Source: a virus
DNA length: 53,269 nucleotides
Virus record (IMG/VR): IMGVR_UViG_3300022752_000099
Coordinates: 1-53,269 of that record
Strand: one strand, 5' to 3'
How positions within the stretch are numbered: the stretch's first letter is position 1; every line of letters starts with the position of its first letter. Below are positions 35,831 to 42,090 of this stretch, piece after piece. The notes beneath the pieces are model-generated. The model did no database searches, was not told where the DNA came from, and saw nothing but the letters and a program-made list of their open reading frames with translations. The translations under genes were made by a program, and so were the position numbers.

Positions 35831-37300
35831 ATGAAAAAATATTTATCGTTACTTTTGATATTAAGTAGTTATTTATCATTAGCTCAAACTGCTATTTATT
35901 CTGAGAATTGCGGGAATCCTGCAGCAACTACATCAGTAAATACTTACACCGGTTGGCAGAGGTATGGATCGCAAGTATATACAGGTAATGCCGATGTAAG
36001 AACTACGTTACCGTCTACGACTTACACCGGAGCTTCTGGATTAGGTAACATATTTGTAACTAGTACATTAAATACAAATGTCGTTATATCAAATATCAAT
36101 ACAACCGGATACACGAACTTAACATTATCGTTCGGACATTTAAAAACTACAAGTGCTTCAAACGGATCTCAATTGGCAGTAGAAGTTAGTACGGACGGTT
36201 CTACATGGACCACTTTAAGTTACTCAGTACCTACGGGTACTTCAACTTCAAATATTTGGAGATTAGTTACTCCGATCGGTACTATACCCAGTACAAGTAA
36301 TTTAAGAATTAGATTTAGAATGATTGCAGTCGTCACAGGTTTGCAATTTAGAATTGATGACATCAAGTTGGTAGGCTGTGCAATACCGTCAGCTCCTACC
36401 TATACTATCAATACACCATCATGTCAATCTGCCACATTGACGTACGGTTCCAATACATATTTACAAACTTTAGAAACGGATACTAATAGAACGTTAAACT
36501 CTCCGCAGGCGTTCACGACTTCAGGTACTAGATATTTAAGAACTGTATCATCAGTTACCGGATGCACCTCAGTATGGTCAAATGCCACAAGCGTGCCGGT
36601 CAATGTAATACCGTTACCTACAATTACTCAGAACCCTAATAATGTTGAAACTTCAAATAGTTTAAATGCCACGTTTATTGCAAAGTCATCAAATGCTTTT
36701 TATTGGCAGACTTCAGTGGATTCAATAAATTGGACTATTGTAGATTCAATACAACGAGATACTTTAATGTTGCTTGAAGTCAATACCACAATGAACGGCA
36801 GGTTTTATAGAATAGCTGCCAATAATACTCCGTGCAGTGATACCGTGTATTCAACGCCAGCAAAACTTACAGTTCATTTATGGCCACTACCTGTTAAAAT
36901 GATTTATTTTGAAGCAAATCAAATAAATGATATGGTCTCATTGAAATGGGCGACGGCTGTTGAATTGAACAATGATAAGTTTATTGTTGAAAGATCAGAG
37001 AATTGCAATTCATGGACAGAACTGGGACAAGTACGCGGAGTCGGTAATAACAATTCCAACTCATTTTATTCATTTGAAGATTACAATCCAAATCGCGGCG
37101 TGAATTATTATAGATTGAAACAAGTGGATTACAACGGAGTTCATGAATATTTCAATATAGTTTCTCTGTTTGTTAAAAATTCATTTGCTTCAAAAAAATA
37201 TTATAACATTCATGGTATTGAAGTTGATAAACTAGAATTGAATAAAGTGTACATTGAGTTTGACCGGAACAGTTCTAGAAAAATAATGATGATAGACTGA
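35831..37300 (+). CDS. Secreted protein with T9SS-cargo-like C-terminal region
   Basis: This 489-residue protein has a signal peptide (MKKYLSLLLILSSYLSLA, likely cleavage after residue 18). The first third is a Thr/Ser-rich beta-sandwich-like region, then an Ig-like middle, and from about residue 350 a module typical of Bacteroidetes secreted proteins: LPVKMIYFEA, VSLKWATAVELNNDKFIVER, FYSFEDYNPNRGVNYYRLKQ, and a final beta segment (KYYNIHGIEVDKLEL to KIMMID) resembling a type IX secretion sorting domain. It is not a known phage structural family. A host-derived cell-surface or adhesion protein carried as a cargo gene is likely; a tail-fibre role is an alternative. A terminator follows. Confidence 0.8.
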   Translation: MKKYLSLLLILSSYLSLAQTAIYSENCGNPAATTSVNTYTGWQRYGSQVYTGNADVRTTLPSTTYTGASGLGNIFVTSTLNTNVVISNINTTGYTNLTLSFGHLKTTSASNGSQLAVEVSTDGSTWTTLSYSVPTGTSTSNIWRLVTPIGTIPSTSNLRIRFRMIAVVTGLQFRIDDIKLVGCAIPSAPTYTINTPSCQSATLTYGSNTYLQTLETDTNRTLNSPQAFTTSGTRYLRTVSSVTGCTSVWSNATSVPVNVIPLPTITQNPNNVETSNSLNATFIAKSSNAFYWQTSVDSINWTIVDSIQRDTLMLLEVNTTMNGRFYRIAANNTPCSDTVYSTPAKLTVHLWPLPVKMIYFEANQINDMVSLKWATAVELNNDKFIVERSENCNSWTELGQVRGVGNNNSNSFYSFEDYNPNRGVNYYRLKQVDYNGVHEYFNIVSLFVKNSFASKKYYNIHGIEVDKLELNKVYIEFDRNSSRKIMMID

Positions 37301-38844: not shown

Positions 38845-39018
38845 ATGATATTGTTTGCGAATGTGCAATTTTGGTTTTACACCAAACTCATCAATCACTA
38901 TATTAGAAAGAATGATTTTGATCAAGTCGCAATTTACCTTGAAAAAAAGAAACAGTTAGCAAAAATTATTCGTAAAACATTGACAAGAAATGAAACGGCC
39001 CACAATAGAAATCACTGA
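38845..39018 (+). CDS. 57-residue protein, unknown
   Basis: The frame begins at an ATG overlapping the stop of an 11-residue leader peptide (ATGA) and runs to TGA at 39016-39018, overlapping the next gene by 29 bases. The start MILFANVQFWFYTKLINHYI is hydrophobic and aromatic; the rest is Lys-rich and helical. The 11-residue peptide before it may be a translational coupling leader. Confidence is limited by the size. Confidence 0.45.
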   Translation: MILFANVQFWFYTKLINHYIRKNDFDQVAIYLEKKKQLAKIIRKTLTRNETAHNRNH

Positions 39019-39208
39019 TATACATGGTAAGAATTATGGTGTATGCGACGTAACAGAAATCGGTTGGTCTCCTAATGGTGATCTCGTGACGGCCAAAGTC
39101 GATTTCATGGGAGACTATCGTGATTTAATGGTGATGTACGATATTGATTGTACTGGTACTTTTACAAATGCCCGCGGCAATCTTAAAGGAAAATTGATTT
39201 TTGAATAG
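38990..39208 (+). CDS. Hypothetical small protein
   Basis: This 72-residue protein (MKRPTIEITDIHGKNYGVCD start) is beta-rich, with VTEIGWSPNGDLVTAKVDF and a Gly-Asn-Leu-Lys-Gly turn near the end. It might be a small beta-barrel. No family recognised. It ends 9 bases before the first tRNA-like element. Confidence 0.55.
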   Translation: MKRPTIEITDIHGKNYGVCDVTEIGWSPNGDLVTAKVDFMGDYRDLMVMYDIDCTGTFTNARGNLKGKLIFE

Positions 39209-39217
39209 TTTTCAAAT

Positions 39218-39341
39218 AGTCAGGTGGCGTAATGGTGTACGCTCTGCCTTAGTACTGCGAGGTGTTAATCTATATGGTTGCTTGCGGGAATAGGTAGAAT
39301 TGATTGTTGTAATCAAACAGGTTCGAATCCTGTCCTGACTG
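39218..39341 (+). tRNA. tRNA-like element 1 with enlarged anticodon loop
   Basis: The acceptor stem is AGTCAGG (39218-39224) with CCTGACT (39334-39340). The D arm is GCGT/ACGC (39227-39230, 39239-39242) around AATGGTGT. The T arm is ACAGG-TTCGAAT-CCTGT (39317-39333), a standard T loop. CTGCC (39244-39248) pairs with GGTAG (39293-39297, one G-T) but encloses 44 bases rather than 7, with an internal GCGAG/CTTGC hairpin. A possible variable arm TTGATT/AATCAA follows. No anticodon can be assigned. CCA is not fully encoded (GCA follows). It ends exactly 14 bases before the ATG at 39356. Confidence 0.55.
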
Positions 39342-39355
39342 CAAAAATAAAAAAT

Positions 39356-39595
39356 ATGAAAAAGTTATTATTCACATCATTAGTATTATTATTTACATCA
39401 TCATGTGCAGATCAACAGAAGAGAATGACTGCTCTTGAAAAAATTTATCCTAATTGTAAGGTTGAACCTGCAACAGGATTAATTCAACGCGATGGGTACG
39501 ACTTTATAGTTATAGATTCAACCATGCAAATTATAGCAGTGTCTTTCTATCCTTTCAGTGAGACTAAAATACAATCATTAAGAAATATTAGATAG
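39356..39595 (+). CDS. Small putative lipoprotein
   Basis: This 79-residue protein starts at the ATG at 39356 (MKKLLFTSLVLLFTSSCADQ), a short signal with a Cys at 17 that fits a relaxed lipobox. The mature part is about 60 residues with a RMTALEKIYPNCKVEP start. The extension upstream to 39278 would run through the tRNA-like element and is rejected. Small phage lipoproteins often act in superinfection exclusion, but nothing here proves that. It lies between the two tRNA-like elements. Confidence 0.65.
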   Translation: MKKLLFTSLVLLFTSSCADQQKRMTALEKIYPNCKVEPATGLIQRDGYDFIVIDSTMQIIAVSFYPFSETKIQSLRNIR

Positions 39596-39601
39596 TAAAC
39601 A

Positions 39602-39716
39602 GTCAGGTGGCGGAATTGGTTAGACGCTTGGGGTTGATGGATAGTGCACATAAAACATACAAGTAATTACCCTGTTACAAAATCCATCGTACACGTTCGA
39701 ATCGTGTCCTGACTGC
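39602..39716 (+). tRNA. tRNA-like element 2 with enlarged anticodon loop
   Basis: The acceptor stem is AGTCAGG (39602-39608) with CCTGACT (39709-39715), identical to element 1. The D arm is GCG/CGC (39611-39613, 39626-39628) around a GAATTGGTTAGA loop, Leu-like. The T arm is ACACG-TTCGAAT-CGTGT (39692-39708). TGGGG (39630-39634) can pair with CCCTG (39671-39675, two G-T) enclosing 36 bases; an alternative GATGGAT/ATCCATC pairing (39637-39643, 39683-39689) also exists. No anticodon can be assigned. It ends 14 bases before the ATG at 39731. Confidence 0.5.
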
Positions 39717-39730
39717 AAAAAATTAAAATT

Positions 39731-39934
39731 ATGACTACTGTTAAAAAGTTAATCGAAGAGCTGAGTAAACTTGATCCGGATACCGTTGTTTTCATACCAG
39801 GATATGAGGGAGGATATAAATACGCGTCGACCGATTTAGACGTGTACAACTTTAATTTAGGTGTTAATTCTGAATGGTATTACGGCCCGCATCAATTAGC
39901 AGATAACGGTCCTGTAAAAGGTGTAATTCTATAA
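39731..39934 (+). CDS. Small conserved phage-type protein, unknown
   Basis: This 67-residue protein has the motif TVKKLIEELSKLDPDTVVFI followed by PGYEGGYKYAS, a layout (Leu-x-x-Leu-Asp-Pro-Asp-x-x-Val then Gly-Tyr-Glu-Gly-Gly) I recall from many phage and bacterial hypothetical proteins. No function known. Its start lies 14 bases after the second tRNA-like element. After its stop there is a 155-base A/T-rich stretch with two promoter-like boxes leading to the large RNA. Confidence 0.65.
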   Translation: MTTVKKLIEELSKLDPDTVVFIPGYEGGYKYASTDLDVYNFNLGVNSEWYYGPHQLADNGPVKGVIL

Positions 39935-39976
39935 AAAAAAGTTTAAAAATTACTTGTATATTGCGAAAGTAATTCT

Positions 39977-39984
39977 TATATTTA
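39977..39984 (+). promoter_or_regulatory. Promoter-like box TATATTTA, about 100 bases upstream of the large RNA promoter
   Basis: TATATTTA at 39977-39984, preceded by TAATTCT. The downstream 40-80 bases hold no ORF, only a short TAGTTGGGAATAG stretch and an A-rich tract, so this box may give a second start for the large RNA or a short separate RNA. Confidence 0.4.
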
Positions 39985-40063
39985 AGTAAGTTAGTTGGGA
40001 ATAGTAGTTCTAAATTGACTTGAAAAAAAAATAAAAATTATTTGTAAAAATTTGGGAATTTAG

Positions 40064-40082
40064 TTTGATTTCCTTATATTTA
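40064..40082 (+). promoter_or_regulatory. Promoter of the large structured RNA
   Basis: TTTGA (40064-40068), six bases, then TATATTTA (40075-40082). No ORF follows, so this site supports reading the box as a promoter rather than as a translation signal. The expected start is near 40089-40091. Confidence 0.65.
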
Positions 40083-40100
40083 TAATATAACGCAGAAGAT

Positions 40101-40113
40101 AGTTCTTTAACAT
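40101..40113 (+). promoter_or_regulatory. boxA-like antitermination element
   Basis: AGTTCTTTAACAT at 40101-40113 closely matches the rRNA boxA core (E. coli GCTCTTTAACA). It lies about 12 bases inside the transcript, where rRNA leaders place it. It suggests Nus-factor-dependent, termination-resistant transcription of a long untranslated RNA. Confidence 0.6.
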
Positions 40114-41023
40114 ATTGGAAACGTATACGACGCATCGGTTGATTTGATAAAACGACTTCGGTTGAATAATTGATGAAACGATGATTAGTATAAATGGGCT
40201 GTGTATAGTCCATGGGCTAGTCCCAGAAAATAAACTGCGAAAGTAGGATAAAGTGGTCGATATGCTAAAATTGACTGCGGCTAAGTAATTAGCTTGAGTA
40301 CAAGAGCGCGATATCATTGAGCCTGTGTAGTCGAGGGTGACACTGTAGATGAAATGGTTTGATGACCTGCCTATTGCGAATAGGTGGGTTGAGTTCGGGA
40401 GAACAATAAGAATAACGCGTGGAATTGATGCAAAAAGTAAGGTTTCCGACTTTACGATTGCGTAATTCAATGTCAGCGTTGACTTAACGTCGAAAGACAT
40501 GATCTTGAAACGGGTGGTGCCGACTTGATCCTTATGATAGTGCACCAACACTATTTTATGAAGTTGACGTGAAACATGGGGATAGGGATATTCCAATTGG
40601 TAGTTTGGTATTTCGTGGGTCAAAAGCTTACGAAGCCTAGGGTGAGCCGCTACCGATGTAATTCGCAGCACAAACTTAAATTGTTCTTAAGTAAAATTAA
40701 AATAATTCAAGCACAAGTGCTCGCCAGGTGTAAGTCATCGACCACGAAGAAAGATGCCTACATAGTAGCCGGCTGTCGGCTGCCACTGAAGTTCGCAAGA
40801 CTGATGTGATTTTTATGAAAGCTTTATAGTCCCGCAAGGATTAATTAGCCCGGCAGGGTTGAGTAGAGTGAATAGTAAGAGATTAACTTGCACCTCGAAG
40901 AGTGATTCACTTAAATAATCGGCATTGTCAGTATAGTATCTAAAAGATACTGGATACGAAGCTAACTCATACGGCTTCAAAAGAATTGACGCTGAACCTG
41001 TAATCTCAGGGTTCTATCCACCT

Positions 41024-41056
41024 ATCTCGATTGTGTTATATACAGTCGAGATTTTT
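41024..41056 (+). terminator. Intrinsic terminator of the large RNA
   Basis: ATCTCGA (41024-41030) pairs with TCGAGAT (41046-41052), with an inner TGT/ACA pairing, and is followed by a T run to 41056. Confidence 0.85.
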
Positions 41057-41088
41057 ACTTTTCAGGCAAATTTACTTATAAATAGCAT

Positions 41089-41535
41089 ATGTTAACAGTA
41101 ACCTTAATGAAAGGACTCCCGGGAAGTGGCAAGTCTGTATGGGCCAAAGATTTGGTTAGAAATTACCCGGATCAATACAAACGAGTAAGCAAGAATGACC
41201 TTAGAATGATGCTTGATGCCGGCAAATATTCAAGTGAAAATGAAGAATTCATATTGAATCTTCGCGATCAAATCATTTTATTAGCACTTCAATCAGGCAA
41301 AAATGTTATTGTAGATGATACTAACCTAGACCCAATACATGAAGCACATATACGTGACCTAATTAAGGGTAAAGCTCGATTAATCATTGAAGACTTTACT
41401 AATACTTCAATTGAAACTTGCATTAGCAATGACTTACGTAGATTGAACTCAGTCGGTGAACGAGTAATTCTGGCACTGTATGAAAAATGGATTGCACCGA
41501 AAGAAAACATTTGCAATCTATATACTGAGTGGTAG
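41089..41535 (+). CDS. Polynucleotide 5'-kinase-like P-loop kinase
   Basis: This 148-residue protein has the AAA_33-type kinase layout of the N-terminal domain of T4 PseT: KGLPGSGKSVWAKDLV (Walker A, about 8-23), RVSKNDLRMMLD (about 37-48) and VIVDDTNLDPIHE (about 79-91, the D-T-N-L motif). The C-terminal phosphatase half of T4 Pnk is absent. It probably phosphorylates RNA or DNA 5' ends. The next gene encodes a macro domain, so an RNA or ADP-ribose repair role is plausible. It starts 32 bases after the large-RNA terminator. Confidence 0.82.
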   Translation: MLTVTLMKGLPGSGKSVWAKDLVRNYPDQYKRVSKNDLRMMLDAGKYSSENEEFILNLRDQIILLALQSGKNVIVDDTNLDPIHEAHIRDLIKGKARLIIEDFTNTSIETCISNDLRRLNSVGERVILALYEKWIAPKENICNLYTEW

Positions 41536-41589
41536 AATATAAATGTAATGAAATTTTAATTATTCAATAGATTTTTTTAACTTTACAAT

Positions 41590-42090
41590 ATGGCAGTTAA
41601 AGTAATTGATGGTGACATTATCAAACTAGCAAAGGAAGGTTGGTTTGATGTGATAGTTCATGGATGCAATTGTTTTTGCACCATGGGAGCTGGACTTGCT
41701 CCGAAAATGGCGGAAGCCTTTAAATGTAATCTCTTCGAAAAAGAGAAACCGCAGTATAGGGGAGATCAAAGTAAATTAGGTACTATTGATTATCAATGTG
41801 TAACTATTGTAATTGGTACTGATGAATGGGACATCAGTGAATTTGATTTAACTGTAGTGAATGCATATACTCAGTACAATTACAAGAAACGAGTGGATGA
41901 TCCGCCGACTGTTGATTATGATGCAATTAAAAGTGTAATGATAGAACTCAATAAAACATTTGCAGGTAAGCGAATTGGATTGCCTAGAATAGGCTCAGGA
42001 CTTGCAGGTGGTGATGAATCTATAATTGAATCGATAATTAGAGATCAATTAATTGATTGTGAGGTATATATTGTTAACTTTAAACCATAA
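41590..42090 (+). CDS. Macro domain protein (ADP-ribose/phosphatase-like)
   Basis: This 166-residue protein is a complete macro domain: VIHG/HGCNCFCTMGAGLAPKM (about 23-41, in pieces) is the ADP-ribose-binding loop, NAYTQYNY (about 97-104) and GLPRIGSGLAGGDES (about 131-145) the second. Family members remove ADP-ribose from proteins or nucleic acids or hydrolyse ADP-ribose-1''-phosphate. The layout with Cys and Met before GAG and IGSGLAGG resembles Poa1p/phosphatase-type members. It may counter host ADP-ribosylation or complete RNA repair. Confidence 0.87.
   Translation: MAVKVIDGDIIKLAKEGWFDVIVHGCNCFCTMGAGLAPKMAEAFKCNLFEKEKPQYRGDQSKLGTIDYQCVTIVIGTDEWDISEFDLTVVNAYTQYNYKKRVDDPPTVDYDAIKSVMIELNKTFAGKRIGLPRIGSGLAGGDESIIESIIRDQLIDCEVYIVNFKP

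Follow-up and report, generated by a model that had tools for sequence, protein, structure and literature searches.

The giant structured RNA on the plus strand at positions 40090-41056 of the window, the whole 53,269-base virus record, is by homology a complete GOLLD RNA gene and a further member of an established class. GOLLD was reportedly first described in 2009; what appears to be new, to judge from the literature searched, is that most of these GOLLDs begin with a conserved leader of the rRNA type, containing a boxA, which suggests how such RNAs may be expressed.

A complete GOLLD gene and its limits

Among 4227 Rfam families, only GOLLD and tRNA match positions 39000-42000 at E<=1, and ROOL, HEARO and OLE give no match there at that threshold. 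The cmscan match to GOLLD (RF02032) covers model positions 1-416 of 416 with a score of 251.1 bits (E 2.6e-70), the gathering score being 150 bits. boxA and the conserved 3' end lie 908 nt apart, where a GOLLD composed of a 5' and a 3' domain is expected to exceed 800 nt. The record holds this one GOLLD only, and a megablast search among phage records found no near relatives of the region. Four Bacteroidota genomes searched for GOLLD likewise gave no match, in a search that also returned none for its positive controls.

As RF02032 models only the 3' domain, the match could in principle conceal a hitherto undescribed class of giant RNA, or a novel 5' domain fused to a GOLLD 3' domain. However, the 5' half of the window RNA shares homology with the 5' half preceding GOLLD in LR745206, a phage record of 634 kb, and, as sole nhmmer query, it matched approximately 75 GOLLD loci, mostly in viral contigs. 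Because this half is common to other GOLLD loci, the whole unit is assigned to GOLLD and is neither a chimera nor a new class; both variants of this alternative were rejected and are extremely unlikely. Most of the loci compared here are viral contigs picked by a 3'-domain pattern, and their counts refer to loci listed, not to totals. The chance that the region is instead a protein gene is smaller still, bordering on nil. The plus strand of 40090-41056 holds no open reading frame of at least 90 aa, and the single long antisense frame (203 aa, minus strand, 40060-40671), although open in the window, found no match in PHROG. Its longest counterpart in the same stretch of 11 homologues spans 48-104 codons versus 166 in the window; these broken frames, together with the strong covariation of the RNA described below, rule it out.

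Both ends of the gene are marked by transcription signals (Table 1). The promoter, from which transcription would be expected to start near 40088, is matched at chance level when taken alone (4 sites seen, 3.9 expected), and is believed because homologous genes bear a promoter of the same type in a similar place. For the terminator, a scan of the region found 2 sites where 0.6 were expected. The original prediction, which had proposed a large non-coding phage RNA of the GOLLD or ROOL kind with many hairpins, its own promoter and terminator and no credible coding frame, is thus borne out in each of these respects, and its limits were correct to within a few bases. It had left open whether the RNA belonged to those kinds or formed a class of its own; the former is upheld by the covariance-model comparison that it had proposed, and the latter fails on the shared 5' half.

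Table 1. Features of the GOLLD locus and of the upstream tRNA-like elements (positions in the window)
Feature	Position	Strand	Details	Basis
tRNA-like element, first copy	39219-39339			matches Rfam tRNA
tRNA-like element, second copy	39602-39713			no Rfam tRNA match at E<=1
Predicted promoter, Bacteroidota-type	40051-40082	+	TTTG-N20-TATATTTA	sequence; same type in homologues
boxA	40102-40110	+	GTTCTTTAA; extended GTTCTTTAACATATTGG to 40118	motif conserved in GOLLD loci
GOLLD 5' domain	40119-40595	+	cap domain in env-38 structure; outside Rfam model	nhmmer; covariation
Hairpin of 5' domain	40365-40389	+	contact of loop 40376-40379 (GCGA) with 40663-40666 (UCGC), next to linker	covariation
GOLLD 3' domain	40596-41012	+	ring domain in env-38 structure	RF02032, 251.1 bits; covariation
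Variable linker	40667-40708	+	A+U-rich; limits approximate; no tRNA inside	Rfam alignment; PMC12286853
Pseudoknot	40754-40925	+	40754-40757 (AUGC) with 40922-40925 (GCAU)	two-sided changes in 3/4 pairs
Hairpin (probably L21a)	40829-40841	+	loop 40833-40837 with GC dinucleotide 40834-40835	
Predicted intrinsic terminator	41024-41062	+	13-pair stem, 3-base loop, T tail TTTTACTTTT	

The fold of the RNA is supported by energy and, more strongly, by covariation. The folding energy of 40090-41056 is -283.2 kcal/mol, compared with -245.5 +/- 7.4 for 20 shuffles (z -5.1). An alignment of 35 nonredundant GOLLDs, running from boxA to the 3' end with a mean identity of 67%, was compared with controls in which the pairing partners were slid by 1-3 columns. 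Consensus pairs form in 93.7% of cases versus 38-43% in these controls, a percentage biased upward because the consensus structure was derived from the same alignment. The stronger measure is the count of two-sided changes, which occur in 147 of the 222 consensus pairs versus 42-66 after sliding; covariation, the other proposed check on the predicted stems, is therefore present. Of the two findings named beforehand as refuting, a conserved protein frame and a lack of covariation, neither was observed, which favours the RNA. The signal extends over both halves of the molecule, with two-sided changes in 76 of 117 pairs of the 5' domain (20-29 in slid controls; 94.1% of its pairs form) and in 71 of 104 pairs of the 3' domain (18-38 in slid controls). 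Two further contacts, between the 5'-domain loop and the linker edge and in the 3'-domain pseudoknot, covary and lie outside the nested fold; the former, GCGA/UCGC in the window, is replaced in relatives by GUGG/CCAC, GUAG/CUAC, CCGA/UCGG or ACCG/CGGU. The loop dinucleotide at 40834-40835, GC in the window, is CG in several relatives, and the hairpin bearing it is probably, to judge by its position, L21a, the self-kissing loop between half-shells.

These features invite comparison with GOLLD env-38, which forms a closed, hollow RNA cage of 14 copies, a property of GOLLD shown in 2025, with the linker disordered inside the cage and a GC/CG switch in the L21a loop as evidence for the contact between half-shells (PMC12286853). 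The window RNA resembles it in matching the full Rfam model above the cut-off, in having a separate 5' domain before the 3' domain with a total length above 800 nt, in the GC/CG loop switch and in its place in a phage genome close to genes for tRNAs or tRNA-like elements. It differs in that the boxA leader is absent from the text of PMC12286853, that the contact between the 5'-domain loop and the linker edge has no assigned counterpart among the published bridges, and that the cage was seen for env-38, whereas the window RNA is known from sequence alone. ROOL is likewise a giant, cage-forming phage RNA found near tRNA islands (PMC12286853), but positions 39000-42000 hold no match to it, as stated above; a lncRNA stretch from L. 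salivarius, taken for a comparison with ROOL in respect of boxA, gave no Rfam match.

The boxA leader

In the alignment with LR745206, the start of the RNA contains a conserved segment of the form TTAGTTCTTT(A/G)A(A/C)ATATTG, which resembles the boxA of rRNA. The boxA listed in Table 1 is the sole plus-strand match to GTTC(A/T)TTRA in the window. Among the contigs listed, 97 reach 1000 nt or more beyond the 3'-end pattern on its upstream side, and in 80 of them GTTCTTTRA stands 700-1000 nt before the 3' end of GOLLD. A profile built from these 80 calls ten of the 17 others GOLLD, giving 80 of 90 GOLLD loci with the motif; the profile is no independent test of the 80 themselves, for which independent support comes from the search with the 5' half of the window RNA and from Rfam on three scanned loci. 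The density of GTTCTTTRA at 700-1000 nt is 41 times that in the remaining locus sequence, although in one of the 80 loci (L014) the motif directly follows GGGAGG and may be a coincidence. Since approximately ten diverged GOLLD loci, with low 3'-domain scores, do not have the motif, boxA is regarded as a feature of one lineage, which probably belongs to phages of Bacteroidota. The window phage itself probably infects Bacteroidota, as judged solely from its promoter type and boxA.

The same motif is found in front of bacterial ribosomal RNA. Within 210 nt upstream of 115 Bacteroidota-type 16S genes, GTTCTTTRA occurs in 42 leaders and GTTCATTRA in 26, approximately 0.7 being expected for each, and there too it stands after a similar promoter. 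The window boxA therefore has the same sequence as those of Bacteroidota 16S leaders and a comparable setting, a few tens of bases past a similar promoter and ahead of an untranslated structured RNA; it differs in leading a phage RNA rather than rRNA, and in that its role is read from the sequence only. Of 37 nonredundant GOLLD loci, about half have a promoter of the form TANNTTT(G/A), which precedes boxA by 34-37 nt. Between promoter and boxA, 45% of 47 nonredundant GOLLD genes carry a small hairpin, versus 1.6% of shuffles, and its stem shows compensating changes (UCGGA/UCCGA or UCAGGA/UCCUGA); the window leader has the boxA without this hairpin. The open-access literature searched, a scope outside which the 2009 discovery paper falls, contained no description of a boxA start of GOLLD genes and no relevant paper joining boxA and GOLLD.

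boxA shows a preference for stable-RNA genes. Viral contigs were scanned for GTTCTTTGA downstream of a promoter box, a pattern containing no GOLLD sequence, and 75 of the 87 classifiable new matches listed, that is, those absent from the earlier GOLLD collection, are GOLLD. The 12 others comprise six in which an Rfam scan identified tRNA genes, four that resemble copies of those six, and two without explanation (L466 and L476); an open reading frame of at least 60 aa lies nearby in just one of the 12, L466.

Several other RNAs with such leaders were observed. In three loci (L053, L082 and L100), an RNA of about 170 nt that appears structured lies some 300 nt upstream of GOLLD behind a promoter-hairpin-boxA leader (AACAGTCTAGGTCCGTAGGGCTACTGTTGTATGTGAGGAAAGTGACTACGGGA...), and those of L053 and L082 have no Rfam match at E<=0.5. 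A boxA-led RNA some 230 nt long, with GGTAAGA/TCTTACC closing it, occurs in five loci on contigs with tRNA arrays (L463, L494, L495, L519 and L546) and has no Rfam match at E<=0.05 in L463 and L494. In L079, a tRNA-Met gene follows a promoter, a small hairpin and GTTCATTGA, at a point approximately 1.2 kb before the 3' end of GOLLD. The viral contig L053, which also holds GOLLD, contains a tmRNA match at 362-778 (78.6 bits, cut-off 47).

Upstream tRNA-like elements and neighbouring genes

The two odd tRNA-like elements described upstream of the RNA are real (Table 1). Their acceptor, D and T arms are conserved (GTCAGGTGGCG...TTCGAATC.TGTCCTGAC), but the region where a normal anticodon arm would stand is hypervariable and several tens of bases long. 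Elements of this kind occur in at least 120 viral-contig stretches (L243-L448), some with several copies. The acceptor sequence GTCAGG is present in 95 of 122 among the matches listed, and most of the other variants still pair. The link to GOLLD that the original prediction implied did not hold up. GOLLD occurs in only two of the 120 listed tRNA-like loci besides the window, and the elements occur in two, the window included, of about 110 GOLLD loci; given this rare co-occurrence they were rejected as partners of GOLLD, and they form a widespread family in their own right, with no tie to it. Two other ideas about these elements were also set aside: a pseudoknot in the middle region is weakly enriched (51% versus 29% of shuffles at score 12) and was rejected, and the case for the elements as 5' leaders of open reading frames is weak (40% versus 29% in controls).

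Directly downstream of GOLLD lies a P-loop kinase-like gene (AAA_33, 41089-41535), for which no close viral relatives were found, followed by a phosphatase gene (PHROG 335, 41590-42090) whose start is macro-domain-like. The proximity of both to GOLLD and to the tRNA-like elements possibly points to RNA repair. Searched with tblastn, their products do not recur near other GOLLDs. A comparison of the window proteins with the GOLLD loci, which left out the small open reading frames starting at 39357 and 39732, revealed no common neighbour except 35831-37300, partially matched in three loci.

Proposed expression of GOLLD and its meaning

It is likely that GOLLD is transcribed in the manner of rRNA, with NusB-S10 antitermination yielding an untranslated RNA of about 0.97 kb that goes on to form a cage. 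Transcription would begin near the predicted start from the host-type promoter, and boxA, some 15 nt into the transcript, would bring in the antitermination complex of the host, NusB-S10 (NusE), as happens with rRNA, which would allow the polymerase to complete the untranslated RNA despite Rho and pausing and to stop at the predicted terminator. On folding, the 5' part of the RNA would become the cap domain and its 3' part the ring domain, and the molecules would self-assemble into a closed multimeric cage in the style of env-38, with 14 copies and the linker inside. Antitermination at this boxA is suggested by the leader sequence and is its natural reading, because an untranslated RNA of about 1 kb would otherwise be exposed to Rho and because boxA is read by NusB-S10 (PMC4807359); cage formation by the window RNA is proposed by analogy with the env-38 structure.

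A different account would make GTTCTTTRA a structural element, its resemblance to rRNA boxA being coincidental: the 5' end would pair with an AAGGAG-type segment near 40897-40902 and so close the molecule. RNAalifold does set 40103-40108 opposite 40897-40902, with 94% of cells paired, the partner segment is well conserved, and such pairing would itself keep boxA constant. However, the pairs of this helix show no two-sided changes, the match to the host boxA reaches bases beyond the helix, related AAGGAG-type segments are present in GOLLDs that do not have the motif, and the same promoter-boxA leader precedes other RNAs, for example tRNA clusters. This explanation is consequently judged unlikely. 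Much less probable again is that boxA chiefly provides a hold on ribosomal protein S10 or on the assembly of ribosomes, for instance to sequester it, rather than acting against termination. Recognition of boxA by NusB-S10 (PMC4807359) and the pull-down of ribosomes with GOLLD (PMC12286853) are compatible with such a role, but the site just after the promoter and the recurrence of the leader at tRNA clusters fit transcription better.

Under the favoured reading, rRNA-like transcription with antitermination, the shared boxA predicts that GOLLD depends on NusB-S10 and resists Rho, and it would explain how a phage produces an untranslated RNA of about 1 kb. It may also help to account for the association with ribosomes noted in PMC12286853, where tRNAs and ribosomes are named as candidate GOLLD cargo. 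With an rRNA-type leader, a connection with ribosomal components would gain somewhat in plausibility; a role of the cage in containing or protecting parts of the translation machinery (tRNAs, ribosomal particles) during infection is nevertheless a doubtful proposition. Only slightly better placed is the tentative generalisation that Bacteroidota phages make their stable RNAs, including GOLLD, tRNA clusters and other structured RNAs, by means of a copied host rRNA leader that uses the rRNA antitermination machinery. Through the leader, the expression of GOLLDs and perhaps their function become testable, and the promoter-plus-boxA pattern provides a cheap search handle for stable RNAs of phages, including structured ones with no Rfam match. 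If phage stable RNAs are indeed made through the host rRNA leader, GOLLD would be synthesised beside ribosome assembly, and its cage would be linked to how ribosomal components are handled in the course of infection.
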